A stretch of 64,000 bases of DNA from a virus, in the IMG/VR virus record IMGVR_UViG_3300022594_000235, positions 1-64,000 of that record; one strand, 5' to 3'. A model generated the notes under the pieces. That model saw nothing but the letters and a program-made list of their open reading frames with translations. It was not told the origin of the DNA and ran no database searches. This document shows positions 32,966-57,048 of this stretch, piece by piece. How positions within the stretch are numbered: position 1 is the stretch's first letter; each line of letters opens with the position of its first letter. The position numbers and the translations under genes were made by a program.

Positions 32966-33410
32966 TATCAAACGTGAATTGAATGCAGTAGACAAGAAGA
33001 TCTATGACTTCTATGATAAACTAACTCCTGAAGAACAGAAGGAGTTTAGCCCCTATGTATTGATGCGATACGTTGCTAACGTTCAAGGAGATCCAGATAT
33101 TCAAGCATGGTTCTTAGAAATGACCAATGAGTTAATTAACAAGAATCATTGGGACCTCAGTAAGAATCACAAGGCATTGTTGTGGAAACTGTTTGCGGCA
33201 TGTGGTGCAGGAGTGCCATGTTATCATCCTTATCTTAAAGCAGGATCAAAAGAAAAAGCAGTTAAGATTGAAAAGTTATTGGCAGAATTATATCCAGCAT
33301 ACAAGCTAGAAGATATTAAAATGATGGCCAAGATGATGACAAAAGAAGACAAGAACGAACTATTTGATAAGATGGGCTTTGACAAAAAGCAACGGAAAGA
33401 ATACGAGTGA
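32955..33410 (+). CDS. helical conserved protein (possible clamp-loader small subunit)
   Basis: 151 residues, all helical: LNAVDKKIYDFYDKLTPEEQ, FSPYVLMRYVANVQGDPDIQ, MTNELINKNHWDLSKNHKAL, and a C-terminal KLEDIKMMAKMMTKEDKNEL. The general plan (small helical protein with an MTNELINKN-like segment and a basic helix) recalls gp62 clamp-loader small subunits of aquatic T4-like phages, but this is only a resemblance. Treat it as unknown in the replication block. Confidence 0.5.
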   Translation: MALDIKRELNAVDKKIYDFYDKLTPEEQKEFSPYVLMRYVANVQGDPDIQAWFLEMTNELINKNHWDLSKNHKALLWKLFAACGAGVPCYHPYLKAGSKEKAVKIEKLLAELYPAYKLEDIKMMAKMMTKEDKNELFDKMGFDKKQRKEYE

Positions 33411-44960: not shown

Positions 44961-45836
44961 TTAGACCCTCCGCATACATGTAGTCTTAGCCATAGCTGTC
45001 CAGCTGGTAGGAAAGCTCTTGCGCAGGTCTGCTAGCTTGAGTACCATACGCAAGCTCAGCTCACGTAGCTTGTCTGCATTGCTGACTACGAACGAGACGA
45101 TCTCATCCTTAGCCACTTCGGGCTCGTTGAAATCATATGCATCCAACATGCCATCGTTAACGATCTGCTTGATGCGCAGGATCTTCTCACGTGTGGTATC
45201 CATCTGCAGATCAATGTAGTGGCAACGGCTTTCCAATGCATCCAAGTGATCACGCAGACGTTTACTCTTAACGTGTTCAAACTTGATGTTGGTAATAAAG
45301 ATAGCGGCACCCTTGAACTCAAACTTATCGGGGATGCCTTCTGAACGCAAGAGTCTGCTATCAGTATTCCAAGCAATGGTACGCTTCTTAGAACTGTCCA
45401 ATGCACCCTTTAGGATGTTCAAACTCAAGTCTTCCATAAGGATTGAGTCACAGTCGTCAAACACTAGAACGTTCTTAGCATCAGCAAACTCGTAGAGTTT
45501 AGCATACAGGCCCAATGCTGACATTGCACCCTTAACGATCTCATACTTGGGCTTACGCTCGCCTAAGACATTAAACAGATCGTCCTTAGACAGTACTTCT
45601 TCTACACCAAAGCTCTTACCTACGCCTGGGGGACCTGATACGATCATAGCACGTACATCACCTGTCTTAACAGCCTTGGTCATCTCAGTGAGGATCTCAA
45701 AGCGTTCACGGAGTCGCTCTACAATCTGCTCGTCCGTTTCCTGTGCTACTTCCTGCTCACGTGCCTTGATAGCATCCGTATCGAACTCAAGTACTGTGGT
45801 ACCGGGCATTGCCTTTTTTGCTTTTGCTGTAGCCAT
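44961..45836 (-). CDS. AAA+ ATPase
   Basis: 291 residues. Walker A SGPPGVGKS (67-75), Walker B VLVFDDCD (123-130), sensor-1-like AAIFITNIKF, and an Arg-rich region KSKRLRDHLDALESRC that may hold the arginine finger. The lid is helical. Single-domain AAA+ proteins of this type occur in many phages; some remodel partner proteins (MoxR/CbbQ-like). Promoter: TTGACA-17-TATAAT at 45865-45893. Stop is 2 bases from the zinc protein start, so a pair is likely. Confidence 0.78.
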   Translation of the reverse strand: MATAKAKKAMPGTTVLEFDTDAIKAREQEVAQETDEQIVERLRERFEILTEMTKAVKTGDVRAMIVSGPPGVGKSFGVEEVLSKDDLFNVLGERKPKYEIVKGAMSALGLYAKLYEFADAKNVLVFDDCDSILMEDLSLNILKGALDSSKKRTIAWNTDSRLLRSEGIPDKFEFKGAAIFITNIKFEHVKSKRLRDHLDALESRCHYIDLQMDTTREKILRIKQIVNDGMLDAYDFNEPEVAKDEIVSFVVSNADKLRELSLRMVLKLADLRKSFPTSWTAMAKTTCMRRV

Positions 45837-45864: not shown

Positions 45865-45893
45865 ATTATACGATCAAAGACGGAATTTGTCAA
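45865..45893 (-). promoter_or_regulatory. early promoter TTGACA-17-TATAAT
   Basis: Perfect consensus on the minus strand, driving the AAA+ gene. Spacer lacks the TGGTAAAACC motif. Confidence 0.85.
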
Positions 45894-46098
45894 GTAATAC
45901 TTGAGCTTCTTGTGTGGACTCTACTTCGTCACAAACGGCCAAGATCATCATCTCTACTACCGTTTGGGCTTCCTGTCTCATTGTAGGGTGTAGGGCTTTG
46001 ATGAACGCTTCTACTTCGGGTTTAGAGTTCATCATCCACATGACATCAGCCAGCGCCCTTTGACGCTGATTGAGCCCTTCTATCTGTACCTTGCTCAT
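45874..46098 (-). CDS. small helical phage protein
   Basis: 74 residues. LNQRQRALADVMWMMNSKPE, EVEAFIKALHPTMRQEAQTV, VVEMMILAVCDEVESTQEAQ. All helix. ATG overlaps the GP88 stop (ATGA). Its 3' end overlaps the AAA+ promoter. Unknown function. Confidence 0.5.
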   Translation of the reverse strand: MSKVQIEGLNQRQRALADVMWMMNSKPEVEAFIKALHPTMRQEAQTVVEMMILAVCDEVESTQEAQVLLDKFRL

Positions 46099-46793
46099 GC
46101 TACCGCCTTCAAACGGATTACGAATCCGCTATAGTCTTTCTTAGCACGACCCTTAGCCTTCAAGCCAAGCATCACACCTTTTGGATCTAAGAAGCGCAAG
46201 TCTGTTTCGTCTGCACTAGGAACGCCTTCTGGGATCTCATCGTATACTGCAACCACGCTCATGCCTTGCTTGAGTGCTTCTGCCACATCTGCATCGTTGC
46301 CATCAGCCTTACTGAATGTCAAGTGGTAGTTCTTGTACTTGGCTACCTTACGGCCTAAGACCTTAGTGTAGTCGTAGAACTGAACGTCTGGAAACAATTC
46401 AAAGATGTTCTTGTCGTTGATAGTGTACTTCTCCCAGCTCAAGTCTGATGTGCCGTTCAAACGAAACACTGGAGTCAAACCCTGTTTAGCCGCGAACTTG
46501 ATGGCCTTTTGAATGTCTGCGTACAGATCGTTCATGAAGTAGTCGCGAGCTTCAAAGAAGTACTTGGTCTTGCGGATACGTGCCTTTTGGATCATGTTCG
46601 TATTCTCACCCTTCTTGAACATGCCACCACGACCGGCAGTATTAAGGCAAGCGGCAGTACAACCAGCGGTGCGCTTTGGGCAAGTCTCTTTGCCTGACAA
46701 ATCAGCAGGAGCAAGGTGCAGGATAAAGCTCAAGTAGCCGAGCTTCGTGCCCTTTTGGATTTTAGGATTTGCTGTAGAAAGTAGTTTGAACAT
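46095..46793 (-). CDS. GP88-family phage protein
   Basis: 232 residues. LSTANPKIQKGTKLGYLSFI, LHLAPADLSGKETCPKRTAG, CTAACLNTAGRGGM and KARIRKTKYFF are the signature of the phage GP88 family, with clustered Cys (CP..T.GC...CL) suggesting a metal site. The family is common in phages; function unknown. Promoter TTGACA-17-TATAAT in front. Confidence 0.75.
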   Translation of the reverse strand: MFKLLSTANPKIQKGTKLGYLSFILHLAPADLSGKETCPKRTAGCTAACLNTAGRGGMFKKGENTNMIQKARIRKTKYFFEARDYFMNDLYADIQKAIKFAAKQGLTPVFRLNGTSDLSWEKYTINDKNIFELFPDVQFYDYTKVLGRKVAKYKNYHLTFSKADGNDADVAEALKQGMSVVAVYDEIPEGVPSADETDLRFLDPKGVMLGLKAKGRAKKDYSGFVIRLKAVA

Positions 46794-46823
46794 GTTCGCT
46801 CCGTTTGTTTAGTGTATGTGTGT

Positions 46824-46852
46824 ATTATACAAGGTTTTACTAACCTTGTCAA
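46824..46852 (-). promoter_or_regulatory. early promoter TTGACA-17-TATAAT
   Basis: Drives the GP88-family gene. Overlaps the end of the upstream gene by 4 bases. Confidence 0.85.
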
Positions 46853-47208
46853 GCCCCAAAGTAGAAATTTTCTGGTTCTACTTCTTCTAGTGGCAATAAA
46901 ACAACGGCTGGGTAGGCAATACGCCCATCCCACTCTAACTGACTCTTTTCGTAGGCAGTCATGAAGTCATCAGCCACTACACCGTAGCCCACTAGGTAGT
47001 TACGGCTACCAACATCATCCCACTCGATGCGCTTACGAAGAACCTCCACCAACTCATCGATGTGCTCATCGTTAGGGCGCTCGTTGCCCAGCTGATAGAA
47101 GTAGTCCTCGCCGCCCTTCATCTTCCAGTACTGTGGGCACTCACCCTCACCATTCCAATCGTGAGCACCGTAGTTTTCCATGTATTGTGTAGTGATATGC
47201 AATTTCAT
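46849..47208 (-). CDS. conserved phage protein, unknown
   Basis: 119 residues from the ATG at 47208. MKLHITTQYMENYGAHDWNG, ECPQYWKMKGGEDYFYQLGN and WDGRIAYPAVVLLPLEEVEP form a pattern I know from many phages without function. An in-frame GTG 114 bases upstream (47322) reads through the promoter and is not favoured. GAGCTC precedes the ATG at ribosome-site distance. Confidence 0.6.
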   Translation of the reverse strand: MKLHITTQYMENYGAHDWNGEGECPQYWKMKGGEDYFYQLGNERPNDEHIDELVEVLRKRIEWDDVGSRNYLVGYGVVADDFMTAYEKSQLEWDGRIAYPAVVLLPLEEVEPENFYFGA

Positions 47209-47239
47209 TTGAGCTCCTAATGTTTCAGTGTATGTGTAC

Positions 47240-47268
47240 ATTATACCTTCAGAAGTTGGTTTTGTCAA
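47240..47268 (-). promoter_or_regulatory. early promoter TTGACA-17-TATAAT
   Basis: Drives the gene at 46849-47208; TTGACA at 47263-47268, TATAAT at 47240-47245. Confidence 0.85.
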
Positions 47269-47515
47269 CCGGTTTACGAACAAAATCCCAGTCGGTGAAA
47301 GAGTGTTGTTTTTATGCCACACCAGCTAGATATGGTGGCCGGGTCCGTCCATCCCGTTGCCTTCGAAGTTTTATTATACAGTTGGTTTTACCATTTGTCA
47401 ACCCCTAATTTAGAATAAGGTGAACCTAGCGTATCTCCCGATAGGCTAGGTTCTGGGTGCCGGGACACTACCCCCGGACTTGGAGCGAATGTCGCTTGTG
47501 CGACTCGGTCTGAGT
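47269..47515 (-). other. noncoding stretch with hairpins and a second promoter
   Basis: No protein gene. Leftward order: small hairpin GTCGC-TTGT-GCGAC (47491-47504), hairpin with CCGGG/CCCGG arms (47460-47477), long hairpin GAACCTAGC...GCTAGGTTC (47422-47453) with an inner 4-bp stem, promoter (47373-47401), then a weak hairpin GCCAC/GTGGC (47316-47339). The promoter would start an RNA with a 7-codon frame (MDGPGHHI) and run into the next promoter. Confidence 0.55.
47373..47401 (-). promoter_or_regulatory. early promoter, orphan or tandem
   Basis: TTGACA-17-TATAAT with the TGGTAAAACC spacer, 165 bases ahead of the nearest coding start. Confidence 0.8.
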
Positions 47516-47785
47516 TTAGAGCGTGATGCCCATTGCGCGAGCTTTATAACCTAAGGCTACGATCTCACGGCTTGGCTTGCCCAACTCATATTCTGTAACT
47601 TCAACACCGTTGGCAGACTTGCGTGTGTTTGCATACACGGCATAACCTGCTTGACGTAGGCGGCTTGCTTCTGCGGCCAAGTTACCGATACCGGCCTTCT
47701 TAGCTTGTGATGCTGTCAACTTCTTACCAGCTTGTAATTGTTGAAATACCTTACCTGTTTTAGTTTCTAAATTAATACGTTTCAT
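47516..47785 (-). CDS. small helix-turn-helix protein
   Basis: 89 residues from the ATG at 47785. KVFQQLQAGKKLTASQAKKA, GIGNLAAEASRLRQAGYAVY and VEVTEYELG form a short winged helix-turn-helix of the type used by small phage regulators (LT..EA....G..NL..RI..LR..GY). Probably binds DNA. It is a good candidate for controlling the surrounding early genes. Confidence 0.65.
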   Translation of the reverse strand: MKRINLETKTGKVFQQLQAGKKLTASQAKKAGIGNLAAEASRLRQAGYAVYANTRKSANGVEVTEYELGKPSREIVALGYKARAMGITL

Positions 47786-47830
47786 TATTGTTTCCTCTAT
47801 AGTTGTGATGTGTTCGCACATCGTAATAAT

Positions 47831-47859
47831 ATTGTAACACCTACGCCAGACCCTGTCTA
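47831..47859 (-). promoter_or_regulatory. early promoter TAGACA-17-TACAAT
   Basis: Drives the HTH gene; each box departs from consensus at one base. Confidence 0.6.
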
Positions 47860-48272
47860 GCCTTTTGGATCTTTTCCTGTATTGCGATCTCCCAAATGCG
47901 GTCTAGATTGGTATTACTGGTTTTGTCAATCATCCAATGATAGAAACTATCGAACAAGGGCATAGACATAGGTGCTTCTTCAGCATTCTCCCACCAATCG
48001 TAATTGATCGTAGGGCCTGTGTCCTTCTTGTTGGCCTGTCTAAGCCCTGTGTCCTTCAATCGGATCGTGTGCTTCCACTTGCGAAGGATAATGGCTTCAG
48101 CTTCTGTCCAGTGGTTGTGTGCCCAAGAGTCCGGCTTAGATCGTTTGATTGCTTCACGAGCCGAGTCAAGCCTACGACCCAAGCACTCGAGTTCGTATGC
48201 CGCATTACCCCAGTCCTTGTAGAACTCAGGGGTAATGTACTCGGTCTTAGTCTTTCTTTTTAATCGAAACAT
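47841..48272 (-). CDS. phage protein, unknown
   Basis: 143 residues from the ATG at 48272 (a start two codons earlier is open). Charged helices (YELECLGRRLDSAREAIKRS, WTEAEAIILRKWKHTIRLKD) and a Trp-rich middle (INYDWWENAEEAPMS). Overlaps the membrane gene upstream by 26 bases. No family. Confidence 0.5.
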   Translation of the reverse strand: MFRLKRKTKTEYITPEFYKDWGNAAYELECLGRRLDSAREAIKRSKPDSWAHNHWTEAEAIILRKWKHTIRLKDTGLRQANKKDTGPTINYDWWENAEEAPMSMPLFDSFYHWMIDKTSNTNLDRIWEIAIQEKIQKARQGLA

Positions 48273-48444
48273 TAGCACGGAAGAACGCTCCTAGAACGAT
48301 AACTGCGAACCAATTGGAAAGGGTGTAGGGGATTGCCAGGGCTGGGAACAGGGTATTGAATGCCCAGATAGTCAACAAGGGACCGATCAGGATCAACACG
48401 ATGGCAAACACTACGATGCCGACTACTGCGAGAATGGTTTTCAT
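48247..48444 (-). CDS. small membrane protein
   Basis: 65 residues with two membrane helices (ILAVVGIVVFAIVLILIGPL and SNWFAVIVLGAFF) and a basic tail. ATG overlaps the upstream SWIM gene stop (4 bases). Function unknown. Confidence 0.5.
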   Translation of the reverse strand: MKTILAVVGIVVFAIVLILIGPLLTIWAFNTLFPALAIPYTLSNWFAVIVLGAFFRANVSIKKKD

Positions 48445-48773
48445 TTGATTTCCTTAATGTGCTTACAGTCGCCACGGAATTGAAAGCCCGGGCAAGTGCA
48501 AGTCTTTTGTTCTACATCTACATAATACACTGAACCTTTGGATCCAGCAACCTCAATCAACTCCGACTTCTTGGGTTCGACTTTGAACGGGTTGACCTTT
48601 AGCTTCTCAAATGTTCTACGGCGTGTATCAAATCCTTTGATTGGGTTCTTGAAATAGAACGGTACAGTCTCGCCCTGCTTGATGTAGGCTACGAGCTGTG
48701 TACCGTCCAGGAGGTACGTGTGATTAGAGCAATTAACATCACCCCAATCGGTAGTTTCACGTACCGCTTCCAT
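48441..48773 (-). CDS. SWIM-type zinc-finger protein
   Basis: 110 residues. The C-terminal YYVDVEQKTCTCPGFQFRGD, then CKHIKEIK, is a CxC...CxH SWIM zinc finger, a DNA/protein-binding module. The N-terminal part (LLDGTQLVAYIKQGETVPFY) looks globular. Start overlaps the previous stop (TAATG). In other systems SWIM proteins act in recombination complexes; here only the finger is certain. Confidence 0.68.
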   Translation of the reverse strand: MEAVRETTDWGDVNCSNHTYLLDGTQLVAYIKQGETVPFYFKNPIKGFDTRRRTFEKLKVNPFKVEPKKSELIEVAGSKGSVYYVDVEQKTCTCPGFQFRGDCKHIKEIK

Positions 48774-49132
48774 TACATCAACGCTGGTTCTGCATCAGCG
48801 AGGATGGTGGCAGAGTCAACCACTGCCGGAGTCTTCGTTGCTTTCTTAGCAACAGGCTTAGAGACCTTAGCCTTAGGTGCAACGTCAACACCACGCTTAT
48901 CAGCCGCGGCTTCCAATGCGGCCTGCACTTCTTTGTTGCCGTTAGCGAAATCGATGCTCATCAAATAAGCTACGATGTCTTCTTTGACCATCGGGTTCTT
49001 CAACTCGATGATATCAATGTCCTTGTGACCGTTCTTGGCAAGTACTTTGACGCGAAGGGCATCATTACAGAAACGAACCTTGAACTCACCGTTCAAACGT
49101 GAAACACCTGCATGTGAAAAAGATTTTGACAT
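48773..49132 (-). CDS. conserved phage protein with basic linker
   Basis: 119 residues. HAGVSRLNGEFKVRFCNDAL, then VKEDIVAYLMSIDFANGNKE, then a Lys/Ala/Pro-rich linker (PKAKVSKPVAKKATKTPAVV). First gene of a four-gene leftward operon. No function visible. Confidence 0.5.
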   Translation of the reverse strand: MSKSFSHAGVSRLNGEFKVRFCNDALRVKVLAKNGHKDIDIIELKNPMVKEDIVAYLMSIDFANGNKEVQAALEAAADKRGVDVAPKAKVSKPVAKKATKTPAVVDSATILADAEPALM

Positions 49133-49161
49133 AATTAATAACTCCTGTGTGTGTAAAAAGC

Positions 49162-49179
49162 GTTAGAACTATTTCTAAC
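49162..49179. promoter_or_regulatory. inverted repeat in early leader
   Basis: GTTAGAA-CTAT-TTCTAAC in the leader between promoter 49187 and the gene at 49132; possible operator or RNA hairpin. Confidence 0.4.
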
Positions 49180-49186
49180 TGTTAAT

Positions 49187-49215
49187 AGTATACTACCAAA
49201 CTGCCCAAATGTCAA
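49187..49215 (-). promoter_or_regulatory. early promoter TTGACA-17-TATACT
   Basis: Drives the operon 49132 to 47841. Confidence 0.85.
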
Positions 49216-49218
49216 CCC

Positions 49219-49395
49219 CTAAGAGTTAACTGTTACGAATGGGCTGTAGGGTTCTTGTGGCTTTTGTGCCACAGTCATACGCACCCAACCATCTACGATT
49301 TTACCAAGCTCTGTAGGAACTTCGAACTCGATAGTGTCGTCCTCGCCCGTGTACTCGTAGTCCGGGTCTTCATATGTCTGTGCAAATTTACTCAT
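49219..49395 (-). CDS. small acidic phage protein
   Basis: 58 residues, MSKFAQTYEDPDYEYTGEDD at the start and WVRMTVAQKPQEPYSPFV near the end. ATG overlaps the previous stop (ATGA), so it is the last gene of the operon from 50193. Unknown. Confidence 0.5.
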   Translation of the reverse strand: MSKFAQTYEDPDYEYTGEDDTIEFEVPTELGKIVDGWVRMTVAQKPQEPYSPFVTVNS

Positions 49396-49520
49396 TTAGC
49401 CAACTCCTGTGATTGTGTTTTAACTGTGTCAACGCCCTTGTCCAGCATCTTGGCAATGCCGCCGAATCCTACTGTGGCTAACACCAGTCCAAAGATTGTT
49501 CCTGCGATAAATGCTCTCAT
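49392..49520 (-). CDS. very small membrane protein
   Basis: 42 residues: MRAFIAGTIFGLVLATVGFG, then a charged end. One membrane helix. Overlaps both neighbours by 4 bases (ATGA), which supports its reality. Confidence 0.5.
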   Translation of the reverse strand: MRAFIAGTIFGLVLATVGFGGIAKMLDKGVDTVKTQSQELAK

Positions 49521-49729
49521 TTGTCAAACTCCTCTTCACCCATTTCAGTTACTTCTTCTTCCAACACCATTACATCAATGATGCGGGCCGTTTGATCTTC
49601 GTTGCTCACACCCTGGAACGCTGTGCGGAACGATTGGTACTCGCCCAGGAAGTCATAGACATCCTCTCGTTCCCAACCTTCAGGCACTTCAAGTTCTTGC
49701 CGCAAGATAGTGGTCAAATAGACTTTCAT
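49517..49729 (-). CDS. small acidic phage protein
   Basis: 70 residues from the ATG at 49729. MKVYLTTILRQELEVPEGWE, REDVYDFLGEYQSFRTAF and an acidic tail EEEVTEMGEEEFDK. Coupled at both ends by ATGA overlaps. Unknown. Confidence 0.5.
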   Translation of the reverse strand: MKVYLTTILRQELEVPEGWEREDVYDFLGEYQSFRTAFQGVSNEDQTARIIDVMVLEEEVTEMGEEEFDK

Positions 49730-50193
49730 TCTGTGTACTCCTCTTGAGTGGCTTTCGCCTCTGCCATTGTCATCCATACACCGTCTGTAGTATAGCAACG
49801 CACATACCATACGCCGTCTGTGCGCAGGATGTAGTCGTATTCTTCTTGCTGGCAAGTGTCAAAGTACTCGTCTGCGTTCTTGTAACTACGAGCTACACAA
49901 CCGCTTTCGCCGCGATCACGTCCGTAGAACGTACACATATCTTCAGTCAGTGCCTTGTAGCCTGCTACTTCTTCAGCTCGCAGTTCAAACTGGCTAAAGG
50001 CGTGCTTCTCACCAATGTTAGGGCGCAGGCTTGACAAGTCGCCTAAGTCAATAAGCTCGCGCAGTTTAAATGGATCGGAGTAGTGTTCTGCAAGGATAGC
50101 GCCGTTGTGTGCCAAGTAACCGTCCCAGTGACAGTAGACCTGCCCAACTGTGCCGTCTGCGTACTCTAGTGCGATAGTGCTTCGTGTTCCCAT
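49726..50193 (-). CDS. conserved phage protein, unknown
   Basis: 155 residues. MGTRSTIALEYADGTVGQVY, CHWDGYLAHNGAILAEHYSD and LIDLGDLSSLRPNIGE are strongly conserved in many phages, but I know no function. First gene of a four-gene operon behind promoter 50225. Confidence 0.68.
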   Translation of the reverse strand: MGTRSTIALEYADGTVGQVYCHWDGYLAHNGAILAEHYSDPFKLRELIDLGDLSSLRPNIGEKHAFSQFELRAEEVAGYKALTEDMCTFYGRDRGESGCVARSYKNADEYFDTCQQEEYDYILRTDGVWYVRCYTTDGVWMTMAEAKATQEEYTE

Positions 50194-50224
50194 TTCTCTG
50201 CTCCTTTAGTGTCTAAGTGCTGTT

Positions 50225-50253
50225 AGTATAACACCGGTTTTACCAGTTGTCAA
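50225..50253 (-). promoter_or_regulatory. early promoter TTGACA-17-TATACT
   Basis: Drives 50193 to 49219; the spacer contains TGGTAAAACCGGTGT. Confidence 0.85.
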
Positions 50254-50258
50254 CCGTT

Positions 50259-50459
50259 TTATGCAAATATTTCTTTAGAAAGGATCTTTTCGTTGACGAT
50301 CTTGTGGCAAGTGTTCATAACCATAAAGGCTATTTGGTAAGCCTGGGCACGTTCCTGCTTATTGCTCAAGCCTTCAATGCGGTTGAACATCTCTGTGAGG
50401 TTGTCTTCTGTAACGAACAAGTCGTTCTTGGGGATTGGGTTTTCTACAATGTTGTACAT
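50259..50459 (-). CDS. small helical phage protein
   Basis: 66 residues. NIVENPIPKNDLFVTEDNLT, RIEGLSNKQERAQAYQIAFM, VMNTCHKIVNEKIL. Single gene between two early promoters; AAGGAGCGAAC leader before the ATG. Unknown. Confidence 0.5.
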   Translation of the reverse strand: MYNIVENPIPKNDLFVTEDNLTEMFNRIEGLSNKQERAQAYQIAFMVMNTCHKIVNEKILSKEIFA

Positions 50460-50487
50460 AGTTCGCTCCTTAAGTGTTTAAGTGTAT

Positions 50488-50516
50488 AGTATAGCACCGA
50501 TTTTACCAGATGTCAA
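50488..50516 (-). promoter_or_regulatory. early promoter TTGACA-17-TATACT
   Basis: Drives the 66-residue gene; conserved leader ACACTTAAACACTTAAGGAGC. Confidence 0.85.
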
Positions 50517-50740
50517 CCAAAGACTCGATATAACCCTACTAGCGTTATGGCTACTCCTACAACGTTAACGATCATCTGTTGTTTATTTGCCACACGGATT
50601 GACCATACCAAGAACAAGGCACCACCTAGGCATCCTGCCACCAACTGTACTGTGTGAAGTTCAGAGAAGAAGCTCATCACGGTATACATTGTCATGAAAC
50701 AGGCAGTTCCTGCCCACTGTAGTACTTCGTTCAATTTCAT
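50513..50740 (-). CDS. small membrane protein
   Basis: 75 residues with three hydrophobic stretches (ACFMTMYTVMSFF, LVAGCLGGALFLVWSI, VVGVAITLVGLY). It starts 1 base after the SleB stop, so it may assist wall-hydrolase export or form a holin-like pore, which is inference from position. Confidence 0.45.
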   Translation of the reverse strand: MKLNEVLQWAGTACFMTMYTVMSFFSELHTVQLVAGCLGGALFLVWSIRVANKQQMIVNVVGVAITLVGLYRVFG

Positions 50741-50741
50741 C

Positions 50742-51266
50742 TTATGCTTTCTTGTAGAAAATGTGTTGACCTACTTGCGCAACCTTACGAACACTCTTTG
50801 CCCACAGCGGAGGATTAATGTACTCTGCGTGATACAGCGTTGATTCGGCTAAGCTAGGCACCCTGTAACCACGAACTAGTACGGATCTTGCTACCGCTTG
50901 GCTTTCTGCCCACAACTGTCCTTTTGGATGCTCTGCCTTTCGCTTCTTATACAAGGTCCAGCTGAACTGGCTCTTGGCGTATACAACCGAGCAAATGTCC
51001 TTGCCCCATTGTCCTGCACGTAGCCTGTTCAATGTAACCTGCGCCACAGCGTACTTGCCTTCGGTGGGTTCAATGCCAGCTTCGTGGTAGATGTTCTTGG
51101 CCAAGCACTCTTCTTCTGCTTTGGTAAAGGTCATGCGTTCGTTGGTCTTAACCACTAGTGCCTTGACTTCCTGTACTTCATCATGAACCACCTGGATCTC
51201 AGCCTGTTGGAAGGCAAGAACAGCCACTAGGGCCGTTCCTGTCGCAATGGTTACAACCTTATTCAC
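50742..51266 (-). CDS. SleB-type cell-wall hydrolase (membrane-anchored)
   Basis: 174 residues from a GTG at 51266 that overlaps the upstream stop by 8 bases. N-terminal membrane anchor (VTIATGTALVAVLAFQQ), then the Hydrolase_2 domain: ECLAKNIYHEAGIEPTEGKY with the catalytic glutamate, AVAQVTLNRLRAGQWGKDIC, VVYAKSQFSWTL. Acts on peptidoglycan. A second such gene is at 61153. Operon with the Api92-like gene from promoter 52132. Confidence 0.78.
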   Translation of the reverse strand: MNKVVTIATGTALVAVLAFQQAEIQVVHDEVQEVKALVVKTNERMTFTKAEEECLAKNIYHEAGIEPTEGKYAVAQVTLNRLRAGQWGKDICSVVYAKSQFSWTLYKKRKAEHPKGQLWAESQAVARSVLVRGYRVPSLAESTLYHAEYINPPLWAKSVRKVAQVGQHIFYKKA

Positions 51267-51840
51267 TGTCTTCCTCTGCGTTCTCTGCTTCCCACTCAGC
51301 GGCACTTTCGCTAATACCAAAAGCCTCATCAAGTTCCCAAGGCAACTCTTCTGCGATCTGCTCGCTGTTCAAGCCACCATACTCATAGAAGTCGTCATCA
51401 CCGTTGTCCCAGATGCCAGCAAACGCCATACCTGGTTCGTAATACATAGCACGGATCGAAAAGCCCATCTCAACCAACTTCTCATAAGCACCAATAGGTG
51501 GGCTCCAAGCACTATCAAAGGTCAACATCAAGCCACCGGGGATGTCGTCAGCTTCTACGCCGTCCGCACCGATATCCCACTTAGTGCCCCATTCGTTTAC
51601 ACAGAAGTCATACCATGTAGCGTAACCAAACTTCTCTAGGTTAGCCTGCTCTGCGGCTTCTAGTGCGATCTGCTTAGGGTCATCCTTAGCACCAACGCAA
51701 CCTGCTACGATCTGCAATTCAGGAGGCACTGGAATGAATTCGTTAAGCAGGGCACCATCGTTGAATGCCTTGCGAGCACGCTCAATCATTGCAGGATCTT
51801 CGTGGTAGAGTTCTACCGTGTTGTTGCACCAATTAGGCAT
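51259..51840 (-). CDS. Api92/DUF1281-like phage protein
   Basis: 193 residues from the ATG at 51840. MPNWCNNTVELYHEDPAMIE, NEFIPVPPEL, TWYDFCVNEWGTKWDIGADG and TFDSAWSPPIGAYEKLVEMG match the ferredoxin-like Api92 family, typical of phages and mobile elements. Function unknown. Confidence 0.72.
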   Translation of the reverse strand: MPNWCNNTVELYHEDPAMIERARKAFNDGALLNEFIPVPPELQIVAGCVGAKDDPKQIALEAAEQANLEKFGYATWYDFCVNEWGTKWDIGADGVEADDIPGGLMLTFDSAWSPPIGAYEKLVEMGFSIRAMYYEPGMAFAGIWDNGDDDFYEYGGLNSEQIAEELPWELDEAFGISESAAEWEAENAEEDSE

Positions 51841-51841
51841 A

Positions 51842-52105
51842 TCAAACTCCTTCGTAGAATGTAACGGTTGGGTCAATGCTCTGCAACTCACGAGCGGCAC
51901 GGGTCAGCAACTGATACTTGGTTTGGACTGCTGAACGGCTCAACTCACCATCGCATGTCAAGTTCTCAGGGCTAAGGTCTGCGTCAATGGAATCAGCAAT
52001 ACGCTGACGATCTTCTGTATTCAACAGGCTCAACTCGCGTGTGCCAAAGATACGAGCAAAAGCGTTCTTGCTCTCTACATAGCGTTCTAAGTTTGAAATG
52101 TTCAT
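51842..52105 (-). CDS. small helical phage protein
   Basis: 87 residues. MNISNLERYVESKNAFARIF, LSLLNTEDRQRIADSIDADL, LLTRAARELQSIDPTVTF. First gene of the operon from promoter 52132. Unknown. Confidence 0.5.
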   Translation of the reverse strand: MNISNLERYVESKNAFARIFGTRELSLLNTEDRQRIADSIDADLSPENLTCDGELSRSAVQTKYQLLTRAARELQSIDPTVTFYEGV

Positions 52106-52131
52106 ATCGCTCCTTAAGTGTTTAAGTGTAT

Positions 52132-52160
52132 AGTATAACAGGTTTTACCAACTCTGTCAA
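52132..52160 (-). promoter_or_regulatory. early promoter TTGACA-17-TATACT
   Basis: Drives four genes (52105 to 50513); spacer GAGTTGGTAAAACCTGT. Confidence 0.85.
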
Positions 52161-52161
52161 C

Positions 52162-52368
52162 CTAAGATTGAATAAAAACTTCTACCCGTTGTATAAAAGC
52201 CACAAACTCATCATACTTGATTAGGCTGTATGGGCTGTGATTGTAGAACTCGTAGGGCATCTTAACCTGCTTGCCGTCCTTCCAGCACTCGTGGAATGTC
52301 TTAATATTGTCTTCTTCTACATCATCCCAAGTCCTGTATTCAAAGCCTAGGTATTCGTAGTGTTTCAT
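52162..52368 (-). CDS. small phage protein, unknown
   Basis: 68 residues from the ATG at 52368. MKHYEYLGFEYRTWDDVEED, CWKDGKQVKMPYEF, YDEFVAFIQRVEVFIQS. Single gene behind promoter 52398. Unknown. Confidence 0.48.
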   Translation of the reverse strand: MKHYEYLGFEYRTWDDVEEDNIKTFHECWKDGKQVKMPYEFYNHSPYSLIKYDEFVAFIQRVEVFIQS

Positions 52369-52397
52369 TTCTGCTCCTAATCTATCAGTGTCTGTGT

Positions 52398-52426
52398 AGT
52401 ATAACATCAATCTATCTGGATGTCAA
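52398..52426 (-). promoter_or_regulatory. early promoter TTGACA-17-TATACT
   Basis: Drives the 68-residue gene; overlaps the 3' end of the upstream gene. Confidence 0.82.
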
Positions 52427-52592
52427 CTACTCGTCCGTCCCTAAAGATGTAGTACTCGTTGATATGGCCGTAATATGCCCAAATGCATTCATTACCGCGG
52501 GTTAGGGTGTAGTGGGTAACGCCCTTCTTCTCTAGCAGGTCTGCAACCACTAGCACTTCAAATTCGTTTAGGGTGGGGTCAATCTTAATCAT
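52407..52592 (-). CDS. small phage protein, unknown
   Basis: 61 residues from the ATG at 52592. MIKIDPTLNEFEVLVVADLL, THYTLTRGNECIWAYYGHIN, ending VVDIQID. It begins 10 bases after the T run of a terminator; no own promoter seen, so it depends on read-through or an unrecognised start. Uncertain. Confidence 0.42.
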   Translation of the reverse strand: MIKIDPTLNEFEVLVVADLLEKKGVTHYTLTRGNECIWAYYGHINEYYIFRDGRVVDIQID

Positions 52593-52602
52593 ACTGTACT
52601 TC

Positions 52603-52642
52603 AAAAAAATGCCGGGGCTTACGGACACTACCCCTGCCCGGC
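52603..52642 (-). terminator. rho-independent terminator
   Basis: GCCGGG...CCCGGC then ATTTTTTT on the minus strand, after the gene ending at 52675. A second hairpin (GGGCCC arms, 52647-52665) precedes it. The loop holds GGGGTAGTGTCC, repeated at 47463-47474. Confidence 0.82.
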
Positions 52643-52674
52643 TAAAGGGCCCCATTGCAGGGCCCGGAGCAACC

Positions 52675-53019
52675 TTAATCCATACGCGAGCTAGCGTAGA
52701 TTCTAGCTTCTGGAAAATACTGGCGGAAGAAGTCTGCGAACGCCTGCGCACCTGCTTCCTTAACACTGATGCTCTGGGTAGGCAAGCCTGCTGGATCCCA
52801 CAGGTCCAAACACTTGGCCTTGTAGCTCTTACGGAAGCCTGCTTCAATCAACGCCTTTGCTTCCTTGCTGTTGGTACGATCCACATAGATCTCAACCCAA
52901 CCAAAACCACATGCATCACGCTCGCCCACTTGGGCATACATCTTCTTAGCGGCTTCTACAGCCTCAACCTTAGCGCCAGCAACCACGCTCAAAATCTGCT
53001 CTTTGCTAAAACCTTTCAT
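52675..53019 (-). CDS. phage protein, unknown
   Basis: 114 residues. QILSVVAGAKVEAVEAAKKM, ERDACGFGWVEIYVDRTNSK, EAKALIEAGFRKSYKAKCLD and a C-terminal RQYFPEARIYASSRMD. Looks like a compact alpha/beta protein; no family recognised. Own early promoter and terminator; may also be read from the structured leader region above it. Confidence 0.5.
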   Translation of the reverse strand: MKGFSKEQILSVVAGAKVEAVEAAKKMYAQVGERDACGFGWVEIYVDRTNSKEAKALIEAGFRKSYKAKCLDLWDPAGLPTQSISVKEAGAQAFADFFRQYFPEARIYASSRMD

Positions 53020-53047
53020 ATCTCGCTCCTTAAGTGTTTAAGTGTAT

Positions 53048-53076
53048 AGTATAGCATCAATGGTTTTACCTGTCAA
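53048..53076 (-). promoter_or_regulatory. early promoter TTGACA-17-TATACT
   Basis: Drives the gene at 52675-53019; conserved ACTTAAACACTTAAGGAGC leader. Confidence 0.85.
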
Positions 53077-53266
53077 CCATTTTTGGGGAACTCCAGTCTA
53101 CTTGTCCTGTACCGTCTACAGGCCTAGTGCTTTCGTCATTATTGCCTACTTACCTGTCAGCTTCGCCCGAAGGTCTGCCTTCTTGTCCTGGATACTAGGC
53201 ACCCGTCAGTGCTCTTCCACCTCTCCTAGGACCTAACAGCGTAGGTAACCCCTAATTCCTTACTAT
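53077..53266 (-). ncRNA. structured RNA candidate behind an early promoter
   Basis: About 190 bases between promoter 53273 and promoter 53048 with no coding frame longer than a few codons. Visible helices: GTCC/GGAC (53185-53188 with 53229-53232) enclosing TAGG/CCTA (53196-53199 with 53225-53228); hairpin CTTC-GCCC-GAAG (53161-53172); hairpin CCTGTA-CCGTC-TACAGG (53106-53122); possible GGGG/CCCC closing pair. It may be a free RNA or a long structured leader of the gene at 53019. No T-run terminator follows it. Confidence 0.55.
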
Positions 53267-53272
53267 GTCTAT

Positions 53273-53301
53273 AGTATAACACCGGTTTTACCTAGTGTCA
53301 A
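53273..53301 (-). promoter_or_regulatory. early promoter without a protein gene
   Basis: TTGACA-17-TATACT, spacer CTAGGTAAAACCGGTGT; the next protein start is over 250 bases away. Confidence 0.82.
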
Positions 53302-53312
53302 CCGATCTGTTG

Positions 53313-53480
53313 TTAATATGTAACAGGAGCAAACATCTTTCTGCCCAACTGCATGAAATTACGGAACTGGGCCTGTATCTGCTCGTCGAACTCGTCCAAG
53401 TTCTCATCCATGTACTCTAACCCAACTAGCAAGTCACCGCCACCAGCTTCTTTAGCTACTTCAACAAGTCTATCAAACAT
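53313..53480 (-). CDS. small phage protein
   Basis: 55 residues: MFDRLVEVAKEAGGGDLLVG, LEYMDENLDEFDEQIQAQFR, and MFAPVTY at the end. Helical and acidic. It stands alone behind promoter 53508 with the AAGGAGC leader, which supports its reality. Unknown. Confidence 0.52.
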   Translation of the reverse strand: MFDRLVEVAKEAGGGDLLVGLEYMDENLDEFDEQIQAQFRNFMQLGRKMFAPVTY

Positions 53481-53507
53481 ATCTGCTCCTTAAGTGTTTA
53501 AGTGTAT

Positions 53508-53536
53508 AGTATAACACAGGTTTTACCAAATGTCAA
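53508..53536 (-). promoter_or_regulatory. early promoter TTGACA-17-TATACT
   Basis: Drives the 55-residue gene; spacer TTTGGTAAAACCTGTGT. Confidence 0.85.
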
Positions 53537-53772
53537 CCGATCGTTGCAATAACCCTATCCTCTGCAGGGTTATAGCTCAGGAACACTTTAGTACTATCGC
53601 GCTCTTTAGCATCGATCTTATAGACAACAAAGTAGCAGAACTGCCCTGCATTGGTCAGACCTAGGAACTTAGCACCTGTGAGCTCGTAGTCCTTGCCCGC
53701 CTTGCCTAAGGCCTGCTGTAGGCCATGATGCGTAAATGAGATCAAGGTCTGTAGTCGTTCTGCTGTGATCAT
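53533..53772 (-). CDS. small phage protein, unknown
   Basis: 79 residues. LQTLISFTHHGLQQALGKAG, AKFLGLTNAGQFCYFVVYKI, KVFLSYNPAEDRVIATIG. ATG overlaps the upstream stop (ATGA). An 8-bp inverted repeat ATAACCCT/AGGGTTAT lies near its 3' end (53549-53573). Unknown. Confidence 0.5.
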   Translation of the reverse strand: MITAERLQTLISFTHHGLQQALGKAGKDYELTGAKFLGLTNAGQFCYFVVYKIDAKERDSTKVFLSYNPAEDRVIATIG

Positions 53773-54083
53773 TCTGCTACTTCCTCCAAACTATCGAAAC
53801 AGTCCTCAACACGGTCTGCGCCATTGTAGATAACATAGTCGCCGATTGTGGTGCGACCTTCGCCCTCTTTGATGTATTCGAAGCCGCCGTAATAGTCCAA
53901 GCTACGGCTACCGTTTGCAACAATGACACGCTCGTTGCGATCAATATACACACGACCACAGCGGATGTCTAGGCCTAGCTTGTCGGCACTTACCCGCTCC
54001 ATGCCGGCCACATAACGCTCAATGCCGTATGTGATCTCGTCCATCACGTCCAGTATGCTACCACAGTCTTCGAACAAATTCAT
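53769..54083 (-). CDS. phage protein, unknown
   Basis: 104 residues. SILDVMDEITYGIERYVAGM, KLGLDIRCGRVYIDRNERVI, VANGSRSLDYYGGFEYIKEG, acidic end. Looks beta-rich. First gene of a two-gene operon. Unknown. Confidence 0.5.
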   Translation of the reverse strand: MNLFEDCGSILDVMDEITYGIERYVAGMERVSADKLGLDIRCGRVYIDRNERVIVANGSRSLDYYGGFEYIKEGEGRTTIGDYVIYNGADRVEDCFDSLEEVAE

Positions 54084-54109
54084 ATCAGCTCCTTAGTGTC
54101 TATGTAAAC

Positions 54110-54138
54110 ATTGTAACACAGGTTTTACCACTTGTCAA
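54110..54138 (-). promoter_or_regulatory. early promoter TTGACA-17-TACAAT
   Basis: Drives 54083 to 53533; spacer AGTGGTAAAACCTGTGT. A GC-rich hairpin (AGGGG/CCCCT, about 54142-54161) lies just upstream. Confidence 0.78.
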
Positions 54139-54171
54139 CCCCAGGGGACAAAGCCCCTAAGGACTGCAGGG

Positions 54172-54501
54172 TTATTCCATGCTCGCTATGCCGTTGTCTT
54201 GCATACCCTGCTCTGTAAACGACACCTCGTAGCCCAGCAACCGGCTAATGGCACTCTCAAAGCCCGTGTCTGTGTACATACGCCAGCTGTCTTCAACTTC
54301 AGTGCCGTCTACGCCGTCTACGTCGTAGTATACATTAATGCTATTAAAGCCGTCAAACTCAGTAACTACAATGTCTGTAACTGTTACTTCTGTAAGTGTA
54401 CAGTCCCAAATGCTGTCACCTGCTAGTACTACACTCTCGTTGCAGGTATAGTGTGTAGTAGTGCTGTCGTCATCGCTAGTAATGTCTTTTTGTGTTAGCA
54501 T
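54172..54501 (-). CDS. acidic phage protein, unknown
   Basis: 109 residues from the ATG at 54501. MLTQKDITSDDDSTTTHYTC, DCTLTEVTVTDIVVTEFDGF, VYYDVDGVDGTEVEDSWRMY. Beta-rich, strongly acidic and possibly DNA-mimicking, though nothing proves this. Own promoter. Confidence 0.5.
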   Translation of the reverse strand: MLTQKDITSDDDSTTTHYTCNESVVLAGDSIWDCTLTEVTVTDIVVTEFDGFNSINVYYDVDGVDGTEVEDSWRMYTDTGFESAISRLLGYEVSFTEQGMQDNGIASME

Positions 54502-54528
54502 AAGTGCTCCTTTAGTGTTTAAGTGTGT

Positions 54529-54557
54529 AGTATAGCACAGTTTTACCAAAATGTCAA
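54529..54557 (-). promoter_or_regulatory. early promoter TTGACA-17-TATACT
   Basis: Drives the 109-residue gene; spacer TTTTGGTAAAACTGTGC. Confidence 0.85.
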
Positions 54558-54582
54558 CTGTGCTATACAATAACCCTGCAAC

Positions 54583-54846
54583 TTAGTCAACTAATTGTAT
54601 GTTGCTAGTGTTTAGCGTTTTGCTAGCTATGTGCAGGGCTTGTAGTACTTCCTCTGCTTGTAAGTCTCCGCTAACATAAGCGCATTTTGCTTGCACAGGA
54701 AATGCGTGTACTAGCTCGTTTTTATTATTAAGTTTTTTGTGTACATTAAAAGCAACTACTACTTTTACAGTACCTAATTTTTTATTGTAAACTAACTTAG
54801 CTTTTGCAGGCGTATTAACTGCGCTAACTGTAAATGTGTGTAACAT
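54583..54846 (-). CDS. small basic phage protein
   Basis: 87 residues. MLHTFTVSAVNTPAKAKLVY, NKKLGTVKVVVAFNVHKKLN, EEVLQALHIASKTLNTSNIQ. A small beta sheet followed by a helix. First leftward early gene next to the divergent gene at 55004. Unknown. Confidence 0.5.
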   Translation of the reverse strand: MLHTFTVSAVNTPAKAKLVYNKKLGTVKVVVAFNVHKKLNNKNELVHAFPVQAKCAYVSGDLQAEEVLQALHIASKTLNTSNIQLVD

Positions 54847-54873
54847 ACAAGCTCCTTTTTAGTGTATGTGTGT

Positions 54874-54902
54874 ATAATAGCACACTTTTACCAAAGTGTC
54901 AA
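54874..54902 (-). promoter_or_regulatory. early promoter TTGACA-17-TATTAT
   Basis: Drives the 87-residue gene; spacer CTTTGGTAAAAGTGTGC. Confidence 0.78.
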
Positions 54903-54949
54903 CTACAATTTTAATAGTTGACTAGTGTGTAGGGTTTCTTAACTAGGGG

Positions 54950-54978
54950 TTGACAACTGTGGTAAAACCTGTTATACT
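54950..54978 (+). promoter_or_regulatory. early promoter TTGACA-17-TATACT, rightward
   Basis: A plus-strand member of the promoter family with the TGGTAAAACCTGT spacer; drives the gene at 55004. Confidence 0.88.
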
Positions 54979-55003
54979 ACACACTAGACACTAAGGAGAG
55001 CAT

Positions 55004-55216
55004 ATGAAGACAGCAAAGGTTGACGGCAAGACCGTTACAATTGGTGATGTTGTTTGCTTTAAGAGCGACATCGAGCAGTCGGGTACTATTGTAGACATTA
55101 AGCAGAGCTACATGGGCACGGCGCTTACACTACAGAGCACATATGGCTTTGAAGGTGAGTACATAGGTGGGGAGGAGATAACGACCGAACTAGCCCGCGA
55201 CTGCTGGGTAGAATAA
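55004..55216 (+). CDS. small beta-barrel-like phage protein
   Basis: 70 residues. TVTIGDVVCFKSDIEQSGTI, VDIKQSYMGTALTLQSTYGF, then an acidic end. A small SH3/KOW-like beta barrel is plausible (GDVVxF...GTIVxI). AAGGAGAG before the ATG. The only rightward early gene of the cluster. Unknown. Confidence 0.55.
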   Translation: MKTAKVDGKTVTIGDVVCFKSDIEQSGTIVDIKQSYMGTALTLQSTYGFEGEYIGGEEITTELARDCWVE

Positions 55217-55248
55217 CAGGGAGGGCGCAGGCCCTTTCCCACACTCAC

Positions 55249-55280
55249 AAAAAAACCCTACTATATTGCTATAGTGGGGT
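55249..55280 (-). terminator. rho-independent terminator, leftward
   Basis: Minus strand ACCCCACTATA, GCAA loop, TATAGTAGGGT and seven T. It ends the leftward transcript that includes the tRNA. On the plus strand a separate GGGC-GCAG-GCCC hairpin (55223-55236) may end the 55004 gene. Confidence 0.88.
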
Positions 55281-55532
55281 CTTCCCGCCTTGAGCTCAAG
55301 CATATATGGCTCAAGTCCGCTGGCCCTTCCACCTAGCCCCGTTACGGGTTGATCTAGCGTGTGTGCATCCGCTAACATCGGCAGGCCATTCTATACAGTA
55401 GGCACAGAACTTCACAGTTCCCATTGAGCTAGGCTCGTTAACCATTTAGTCCGGTCCGCTTCTTTCCCTGCTGTTAGCACTCGATTGACAACAGTCCGGT
55501 TTCGCTGTATAATACGGTTACTTCAAAAACTA
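55281..55532 (-). ncRNA. structured RNA candidate between tRNA and terminator
   Basis: About 250 bases without a coding gene, read leftward after the tRNA. Visible helices: long-range stem of 12 bp (GCTAACA with TGTTAGC plus GCAGG with CCTGC; 55371-55385 with 55467-55478); hairpin GAACT with a GTGA (GNRA-type) loop and AGTTC (55407-55420); CCCG/CGGG hairpin (55338-55348); CTTGAGC/GCTCAAG arms near 55290-55320; then the terminator. No known RNA family recognised. Confidence 0.55.
55485..55513 (+). promoter_or_regulatory. consensus promoter antisense to tRNA
   Basis: TTGACA-17-TATAAT on the plus strand, pointing into the antisense of the tRNA; no rightward gene follows for about 1.9 kb. Confidence 0.7.
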
Positions 55533-55609
55533 TGGTGGGCCCACCTGGACTCGAACCAGGGACCAAAGGATTATGAGTCCTCTGCTCTAACCAACTGAGC
55601 TATAGGCCC
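55533..55609 (-). tRNA. tRNA, anticodon CAT (Ile2-like, or Met)
   Basis: 77 bases with encoded CCA. Acceptor GGGCCTA/TGGGCCC, D arm GCTC...GAGC, anticodon stem GAGGA/TCCTT with loop CTCATAA, variable TGGTC, T arm CCTGG-TTCGAGT-CCAGG. The body and the variable loop look more like the tRNA-Ile2 type (CAT modified to read ATA) than elongator Met, but sequence alone does not settle this. It is 17 bases downstream of the glycosyltransferase-like gene, in the same transcript. Confidence 0.95.
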
Positions 55610-55626
55610 TAACCTTAACTTATATT

Positions 55627-56634
55627 TTACTGTCTAAGTCCGAGTCCTGCAAGTAATGATTGTGCCGAATTGATCTTCTTCTGCTCCTGCTGTCCTTGCT
55701 TAGTAGCACTCATAAAGCTAGTAGGCACACCGCCCTGTGTTTGGCCGAAAGGACTGTAGGTCTGTGCAGAACCTGCTCCTGGACTAGGCTTATTAGGGGC
55801 CTCTACAGCGGGGTTTCTTTGTGGCTGTGCCTGCTGTTGTTTGGCTACTGTCGCCGCTACATCAGCTAGGCTCTGCACTTGTACTCCGGGTGGTGCTTCT
55901 ACGGGTATATAACCCCACGCCCCTAGCAGTACTGGATTACCATCTACACGGCGGTTCCACTTGCGCATAAAGTACTTGTCAGTCGCCTCACAGATCTTAA
56001 GCTGGTCAATCAAGTTGGCAAATACACTATCAATAAGCACAATAGTTTCCGCACCCTCAATAATCTTTAACCAGTCAAAGATACAGTCAGTTAGCTCAGT
56101 GATCTCTATACGCTCGACACCTGGTTCAATCCCACTAAGATCGATCTCATATTGCACATCACTAGCCTTACCCTGATATACCATGTAGCGGGGTTTTGTT
56201 ACTACACGATCATAGAGTGCTTGCTCACGCACGGGGTCACGAGTAATACACTTGTCTAGTTCCCACTTCTTGGCAAATGCCACACCCGCGGCCGCATACT
56301 TGTACTGATCGAACTTCATCATGGCAAACAGGTCTGGGTCCGTACGTTCTGGCACACTAGACAGATACTGATACAAGTATATGACGTCATCTTCCTCTGT
56401 GATGCCTACACTGGCCAACCTCTCTAGCGGGGTATTTAAAAAGAACTCACCTGTAGCATCTACAGGAACCGCCATCCAATTAACCCAAGGTGCTACATCC
56501 TTAAAATGGCTAACAAAGTCCTCACAGATGGGCCAATAGATCTCATTGCCTTGATCCGCATAATGTTTCGCGATTGGTAAAGCGATAACAATATCACCAA
56601 TACCTCTCGACTGTATAATACCTAACTTACTCAT
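55627..56634 (-). CDS. GT-B/heptosyltransferase-like protein with disordered tail
   Basis: 335 residues. N-terminus LGIIQSRGIGDIVIALPIAK, HYADQGNEIYWP is typical of GT9-type glycosyltransferases; GAETIVLIDSVFANLIDQLK is in the place of the donor-site helix. The last ~90 residues are Gln/Pro/Gly-rich (KQQQAQPQRNPAVEAPNKPS) and probably disordered. Likely a sugar transferase acting on a host or phage glycan; substrate unknown. Confidence 0.62.
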   Translation of the reverse strand: MSKLGIIQSRGIGDIVIALPIAKHYADQGNEIYWPICEDFVSHFKDVAPWVNWMAVPVDATGEFFLNTPLERLASVGITEEDDVIYLYQYLSSVPERTDPDLFAMMKFDQYKYAAAGVAFAKKWELDKCITRDPVREQALYDRVVTKPRYMVYQGKASDVQYEIDLSGIEPGVERIEITELTDCIFDWLKIIEGAETIVLIDSVFANLIDQLKICEATDKYFMRKWNRRVDGNPVLLGAWGYIPVEAPPGVQVQSLADVAATVAKQQQAQPQRNPAVEAPNKPSPGAGSAQTYSPFGQTQGGVPTSFMSATKQGQQEQKKINSAQSLLAGLGLRQ

Positions 56635-56646
56635 ATAATCCCTTTA

Positions 56647-56832
56647 TTAACTAAGCAGGGTAACTCCATAACAATGACCATACAGTTGTTCAGCAATAGC
56701 TCTAGCTTGTAGACTATCTCGAGCTTGAATAACCAAATGTGTATCACGATTGTCTATGACCACCCATATGTCATAATTATGCACGGGCTCATCTCCTACT
56801 ATAAAGGTTTGATTAATTTTACGATCTGACAT
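56647..56832 (-). CDS. small phage protein, unknown
   Basis: 61 residues from the ATG at 56832. NQTFIVGDEPVHNYDIWVVI, DNRDTHLVIQARDSLQARAI, AEQLYGHCYGVTLLS. Looks like a small alpha/beta domain. Lies 4 bases after the lipoprotein stop in one operon. Unknown. Confidence 0.48.
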   Translation of the reverse strand: MSDRKINQTFIVGDEPVHNYDIWVVIDNRDTHLVIQARDSLQARAIAEQLYGHCYGVTLLS

Positions 56833-56836
56833 TATA

Positions 56837-57013
56837 CTAGCAATTCTCAGGACTACGACTACAGTCACGACCACCTTGACCCCATGGAGTCGTGATCCAC
56901 TGTACAGGTTCACTACCCGGAGTTCTTACAGTATACACACTAGAGCAACCTGAGCAGAGTAAGCACAAGAGCACAGTTAATACTATATAGGCAATCACAA
57001 AGTATCTCATCAT
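56837..57013 (-). CDS. small lipoprotein (possible outer-membrane lysis protein)
   Basis: 58 residues from the ATG at 57013. MMRYFVIAYIVLTVLLCLLC, then SGC gives a lipoprotein-type signal peptide with CSGC as the lipobox; the mature ~35 residues hold two more Cys. Small outer-membrane lipoproteins are typical o-spanins, but no partner i-spanin is seen, so the role is open. The consensus -10 box ends 6 bases before the ATG, suggesting a leaderless message. Confidence 0.5.
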   Translation of the reverse strand: MMRYFVIAYIVLTVLLCLLCSGCSSVYTVRTPGSEPVQWITTPWGQGGRDCSRSPENC

Positions 57014-57019
57014 GTAACT

Positions 57020-57048
57020 ATTATACAGCTTCCGTGTGGTTTTGTCAA
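57020..57048 (-). promoter_or_regulatory. early promoter TTGACA-17-TATAAT
   Basis: Perfect consensus; drives the operon lipoprotein, small protein, glycosyltransferase-like, tRNA and structured RNA. Confidence 0.85.

Follow-up and report, generated by a model that had tools for sequence, protein, structure and literature searches.

The early promoters of phage T4 carry extra consensus regions that are thought to optimise the contact with the host RNA polymerase, and their shut-off is unexplained according to a 2010 review (PMC2988021). In the Cluster A mycobacteriophages, the consensus of the operators and stoperators and the repressor itself differ among relatives, which makes the relatives heteroimmune (PMC6550527, PMC9283540). 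The operators of the FadR subfamily of GntR-type regulators have TKGT and ACMA boxes with the GT and AC spaced 3 nt apart (PMC4494728). Here, we compare with these systems a viral promoter array, whose spacers carry a recurrent near-palindrome.

The analysed stretch (the window) is 64,000 bases long and comprises positions 1–64,000 of an IMG/VR virus record totalling 106,657 bases. It contains genes for a contractile tail (sheath, tube and fibres) and for a DnaB-like helicase, a second DNA helicase and a UvsY-like mediator, the latter three making the phage T4-like in replication. This genome and its relatives look virulent and T4-like. The AAA protein is 49% identical with its counterpart in the jumbo phage PA5oct and kin, and the promoter family was not found in the 40 kb examined of this distant relative. 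A blastn search against cultured phages gave no match, and a tRNA was the sole above-threshold match in the Rfam scan.

A predicted promoter array for tiny genes

Sigma-70-like sites number 45 in the 45–58 kb region versus 18.1 (sd 4.2) in shuffles. The 18 sites at 45865–57048 that match at least 11 of the 12 box bases all have a 17-nt spacer, just as the earlier note had claimed for at least 18 TTGACA or TAGACA boxes within 11 kb. Sixteen of them lie on the minus strand. Most have TG before the −10 box, and most are followed by a tiny gene that has a good ribosome-binding site. The TTGACA box, 17-nt spacing, TGn and TATAAT-like −10 box are those of a sigma-70 promoter of the extended −10 type.

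The pattern TTGACA-N17-TANNNT has 22 sites in the 106,657-base record, the majority at 45.8–57.1 kb, while the reversed control pattern has 2. Elsewhere in the 106-kb record, there is a single weaker copy of the promoter. As to the TAGACA variant, the site at 47859 heads a gene, and the one at 53971 is internal to an ORF and probably not a promoter. The leader ACACTTAAACACTTAAGGAGC, whose 3′ end is a Shine-Dalgarno sequence, recurs in four exact copies, one with one mismatch and one with three, against a chance expectation of 0, so the common leader proposed earlier is real.

All the promoter calls here are made from sequence alone. Read in this way, the array is genuine, with about 15 nearly identical predicted promoters for a block of tiny genes. 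Their early timing and early function would follow from the strong sigma-70 boxes and the tiny genes, by analogy with T4.

At least ten promoters were also said to share a spacer core. As a fixed core, TGGTAAAACCnGTG has 3 exact copies and 7 sites with at most one mismatch; the exact copies are so few because several promoters have the element displaced by 1–3 bases. The claim of at least ten holds only if the element may slide and bear some mismatches, GGTAAAA then occurring in 11 array spacers. The conserved portion is a 9-bp near-palindrome GGT-WWW-ACC rather than a fixed promoter sequence, and it is called the candidate operator below.

Lineage-specific spacers among the relatives

The exact spacer pattern retrieved 12 other contigs, and two leader-only scans, which avoid spacer-based selection, retrieved about 40 further ones; a second leader pattern added one contig. 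About 55 related contigs, many of them fragments, have the boxes and leader in common. In all, the promoters that combine the box and the spacing with a start codon number 522, or 402 after removal of near-duplicates.

Among the leader-selected contigs, six have 69 promoters, 29 of which carry GGTWWWACC, while the 25 others have it in 0 of 315. This heterogeneity is strong, with a chi2 of 153.5 versus a permutation maximum of 74.9, and the test is independent of the labels A, B and C, by which we grouped the lineages partly by eye from their spacers. Group A carries the element of the window. Many spacers of the contigs without GGTWWWACC carry TTTGGGC, in either orientation. It is the motif of group C, where it is weaker and degenerate and has 48 copies in one orientation and 45 in the other. 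For homologous genes, the spacer goes with the genome and not with the gene.

Relatives with the same genes and other spacers had been named in advance as the case against a common spacer function. Such relatives do exist. Yet every one of these lineages is marked by a recurrent spacer element of its own, and this makes a stronger case for a lineage-specific factor.

The factor may instead belong to the host. A host transcription factor, such as one of the GntR/FadR type, would then bind the element as its operator, and the phage would use it to sense the host metabolism or to exploit host regulation; the lineages would differ through their hosts. GGT-N3-ACC does fit the FadR-subfamily boxes, and no GntR domain scores above the cut-off in ten large related phage records. 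However, the group C element is unrelated, groups A and C share a metagenome sample in two cases (17917 and 12665), and the full promoter pattern, as opposed to the bare operator, is in 0 of 84,980 prokaryote genomes. We consider a host factor unlikely.

The spacer element slides and flips

GGTWWWACC occurs in 80 of the 402 non-redundant spacers versus 0.08 expected from shuffled spacers. A de novo motif search in group A returned tGGTAAAACC with a log-likelihood of 730, while shuffled controls reached about 33. Inside the constant 17-nt spacer, this motif takes the offsets 3, 4 and 5 in the forward orientation (89 copies) and 1, 4 and 8 in the reverse (17 copies). The central triplet is A/T only, and the exact element is missing from about half of the group-A promoters. 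Eight of the 11 GGTWWWACC copies in the window fall in array promoters; the 3 elsewhere are no excess over the chance number of 2.25 in 64 kb.

On the minus strand, the promoter at 50225–50253 (TTGACA-N17-TATACT) has the candidate operator GGTAAAACC at 50236–50244 and the gene 49726–50193 downstream. The promoters at 53508–53536 (candidate operator 53519–53527, exact leader 53485–53505) and 54110–54138 (54121–54129) serve 53313–53480 and 53769–54083, respectively. The element is displaced by 2 nt, to 52141–52149, in the promoter at 52132–52160 (exact leader 52109–52129), which serves 51842–52105. It comes immediately after the −35 box, at 53062–53070, in the promoter at 53048–53076 (exact leader 53025–53045; gene 52675–53019), and relatives L011, L013 and L014 have it flipped at the identical place. 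The sole plus-strand promoter with a candidate operator (54961–54969) is at 54950–54978 and serves 55004–55216.

All 13 group-A promoters of the 51842–52105 family keep the element, although its position, central triplet (AAA, TTT, TTA or ATT) and orientation vary among them.

Degenerate elements are found in four minus-strand promoters. These are GGTAAAATC at 50499–50507 in 50488–50516 (exact leader 50465–50485; gene 50259–50459), GGTAAAAGT in 54874–54902 (gene 54583–54846), GGTAAAACT in 54529–54557 (gene 54172–54501), where it lies within the 12-bp inverted repeat TATAGCACAGTT/AACTGTGCTATA, and AGTAAAACC in 46824–46852, where it lies within CAAGGTT-AGTAA-AACCTTG ahead of the GP88-family gene 46095–46793. 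The minus-strand promoters at 47240–47268 (gene 46849–47211) and 52398–52426 (gene 52162–52371) are without GGTWWWACC, and in the former AAACC adjoins the −35 box. Also without it are a sigma-70-type site of uncertain promoter role at 55485–55513 (+), reading toward the minus-strand tRNA-Met gene, and a promoter-like site at 57020–57048 (−), upstream of 56837–57013.

The polymerase itself could read the element as part of an optimised promoter, in the manner of the T4 early promoters, with no need of a second factor. The excellent −35, TGn and −10 boxes, the constant 17-nt spacing and the T4 precedent of polymerase-optimising consensus regions (PMC2988021) all suit this possibility. So does the group B motif, which is anchored beside the −10 box in one orientation only; we do not claim it as an operator, since it could be touched by the polymerase instead. 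The group A element, however, is palindromic with an A/T-only centre, and against boxes that do not move it changes orientation and shifts over as much as about 6 nt. Moreover, polymerase contacts would be fixed in position and shared, whereas a different element is found in relatives that have these boxes and this leader. A polymerase contact is thus a rather unlikely account of group A.

Could the dyads be hairpins, in RNA or DNA, which serve the gene upstream as overlapping terminators or as RNA processing sites and coincide with the promoter? Inverted repeats of at least 7 bp between the upstream flank and the spacer are in excess (13 observed versus 4.4 expected by flank permutation), as are group C internal stems of at least 5 pairs (12 versus 1.5), and a few are terminator-like with a T-run (L049 2413 and L013 3784). 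But these concern a minority of the promoters. The GGT/ACC dyad ends at nine base pairs, with zero pairs of outward extension in 68 of 80 copies, and no U-run follows its stem, which at 3 bp is too weak. The hairpin explanation is highly improbable for the element.

The sliding, the flipping and the unextended dyad are together the behaviour of a protein site, not of a polymerase contact or a hairpin. The earlier suggestion that another factor binds in the spacer gains support from a sliding, flipping, palindromic and lineage-specific element.

Separately, the −35 box lies within the loop of a terminator-like hairpin at L049 2413, L013 3784 and L009 11523 and in L055, so that the end of one unit overlaps the start of the next. 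A small gene (MNLEKPTRKKRTD...) begins 6 nt past the −10 box, like a leaderless mRNA, in L007 near 9720 and in L008, L011, L012, L014 and L047.

Two units lack an obvious ORF. One to four tiny genes per cassette had been described, but the promoters at 53273–53301 (−; candidate operator 53284–53292) and 47373–47401 (−; 47384–47392) head ORF-less units within a range of 130–200 nt, of about 190 and 130 nt, respectively. The former unit, 53078–53266 (−), has long invariant blocks in L006, L007, L011, L014 and L047. RNAalifold gives it a closed structure with little covariation support and Rfam gives it no match; it is possibly a phage non-coding RNA. The second unit spans 47270–47370 (−).

Exempt genes and apparent gene exchange

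Three array genes are without the element in group A, all with minus-strand promoters. The AAA ATPase gene (44961–45836; promoter 45865–45893) has it in 0 of 7 relatives, the HTH_39-like gene (47516–47785; TAGACA promoter 47831–47859) in 0 of 5, and the gene of a 119-aa protein (48773–49132; promoter 49187–49215 with the spacer TTTGGGCAGTTTGGTAG) in 0 of 11. Overall, the element is in 0 of 23 exempt-gene promoters versus about 60 of 88 for the other array families (Fisher p ~5e-10, with the relatives treated as independent and the other-family totals summed by hand).

Two of these genes have a 5′ leader hairpin. The one ahead of the 119-aa gene, at 49160–49180, differs in its arms among groups A, B and C yet stays self-complementary. 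The other, GATGTGCGAACACATC at 47800–47825 (−) ahead of the HTH_39-like gene, has other complementary arms in relatives.

In the large records, the core genes are 68% identical within A versus 54% between A and C, while the array genes are 62% identical within A versus 58% between A and C (p=0.003 for the contrast with the core genes). The core genes thus separate the lineages and the array genes hardly do, suggesting gene transfer between lineages with the spacers following the recipient. A separate comparison gave array genes roughly equal similarity between groups and inside a group. The array genes appear, from these comparisons, to have been exchanged in this way, and the cassette-wise gain and loss envisaged earlier is plausible, as they behave like exchanged genes.

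The likeness of the promoters extends little beyond themselves. Among the 12 element-bearing promoters, the pairwise identity is 47% in the spacer and 53% in the leader, but 29% in the 58 nt that precede the −35 box versus 26% shuffled, and 26% at 80–140 nt downstream of the −35 start versus 25% shuffled. With flanks at about the shuffled level, recent duplication of a promoter cassette, one of the two origins first offered for the likeness, finds no support.

Neutral homogenisation within a genome would have recombination copy the promoters and leave genome-specific spacers of no function. The within-genome likeness of spacers and leaders and the apparent exchange of array genes between lineages are compatible with it. 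The flanks outside the boxes and leader are against it, being barely above the shuffled similarity, and three gene families never receive the element. Additionally, homologous copying would leave the element in place with respect to the boxes, whereas it occurs in other registers and on the other strand. We regard neutral homogenisation as quite improbable.

Candidate binding proteins

The 89-aa HTH_39-like protein (47516–47785, −) was the first candidate for the spacer binder. Its HTH_39 match is sub-threshold, its variation does not clearly track the operator type and its own promoter is free of the element, so it is possible as the binder but neither favoured nor excluded. The 119-aa protein (48773–49132, −), conserved beside the array, is another possible operator-binding protein. 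It has no sequence relative among cultured phages and no fold relative in the PDB, its structural matches being only uncharacterised viral proteins, and it was modelled with moderate confidence (pLDDT 69).

Among the array families, the 119-aa protein at first seemed the best tracker of the operator type, but this signal is non-specific because core genes track the lineages likewise. A scan of core proteins, from a set picked partly for A–C divergence, gave no look-alike of a transcription regulator besides a sub-threshold zinc-finger match at 33410–34102.

Possible repression of the early promoters

Our main reading, to which we give a rough probability of 0.58, is that the array consists of independent strong sigma-70-type, presumably early promoters, most with a spacer operator for a clade-specific, probably phage-encoded repressor. 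The form GGT-WWW-ACC is the expected site of a two-fold symmetric DNA-binding protein. Bound there, the protein would occupy the stretch from the −35 to the −10 box and exclude RNA polymerase. We infer repression from the position of the site only: a palindrome between the boxes that tolerates several helix faces fits steric blocking, while an activator needs a fixed face. The lineage specificity fits a phage-encoded factor without proving phage origin.

The putative repressor would end the expression of the small host-takeover genes once the first minutes have passed, and it might also silence the matching promoters of incoming related phages. The AAA ATPase, HTH_39-like and 119-aa genes, having no site, would escape.

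A broader idea is tentative. In large T4-like phages, the early promoters may bear operator codes that differ by clade. A phage repressor would then silence the early genes of its own genome and of kin, and small host-takeover genes would gain the recipient's operator as they move between clades, amounting to an immunity-like self/non-self system of virulent phages. If true, the lineage-specific operators on exchanged genes would tell how phages wire acquired genes into their own control, and they could determine which phages share a cell. About 400 non-redundant promoters from about 55 related contigs provide a defined candidate operator for the early-promoter shut-off.

Comparison with known systems

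The group A element matches the GntR/FadR operators (PMC4494728) in the half-site geometry T-K-GT-N3-AC-M-A and in the variable A/T-rich centre, which is always A/T here. It differs from them in that the ten related phage records are without a GntR domain over the cut-off and that the elements of the other lineages are unrelated.

The array resembles the T4 early promoters (PMC2988021) in the strong sigma-70 −35, TGn and −10 boxes with an additional consensus. In the T4 type, the extra consensus keeps a fixed register with the boxes, whereas the element here slides to varied offsets, flips and varies by lineage.

The Cluster A sites (PMC6550527, PMC9283540) are mostly outside promoters and in one orientation to transcription, whereas those here lie in promoter spacers, flip freely between both orientations and are at the chance level outside the array. 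Moreover, the genomes here look virulent and T4-like and their repressor is only postulated. In both systems, nevertheless, many sites per genome follow a genome-specific consensus.
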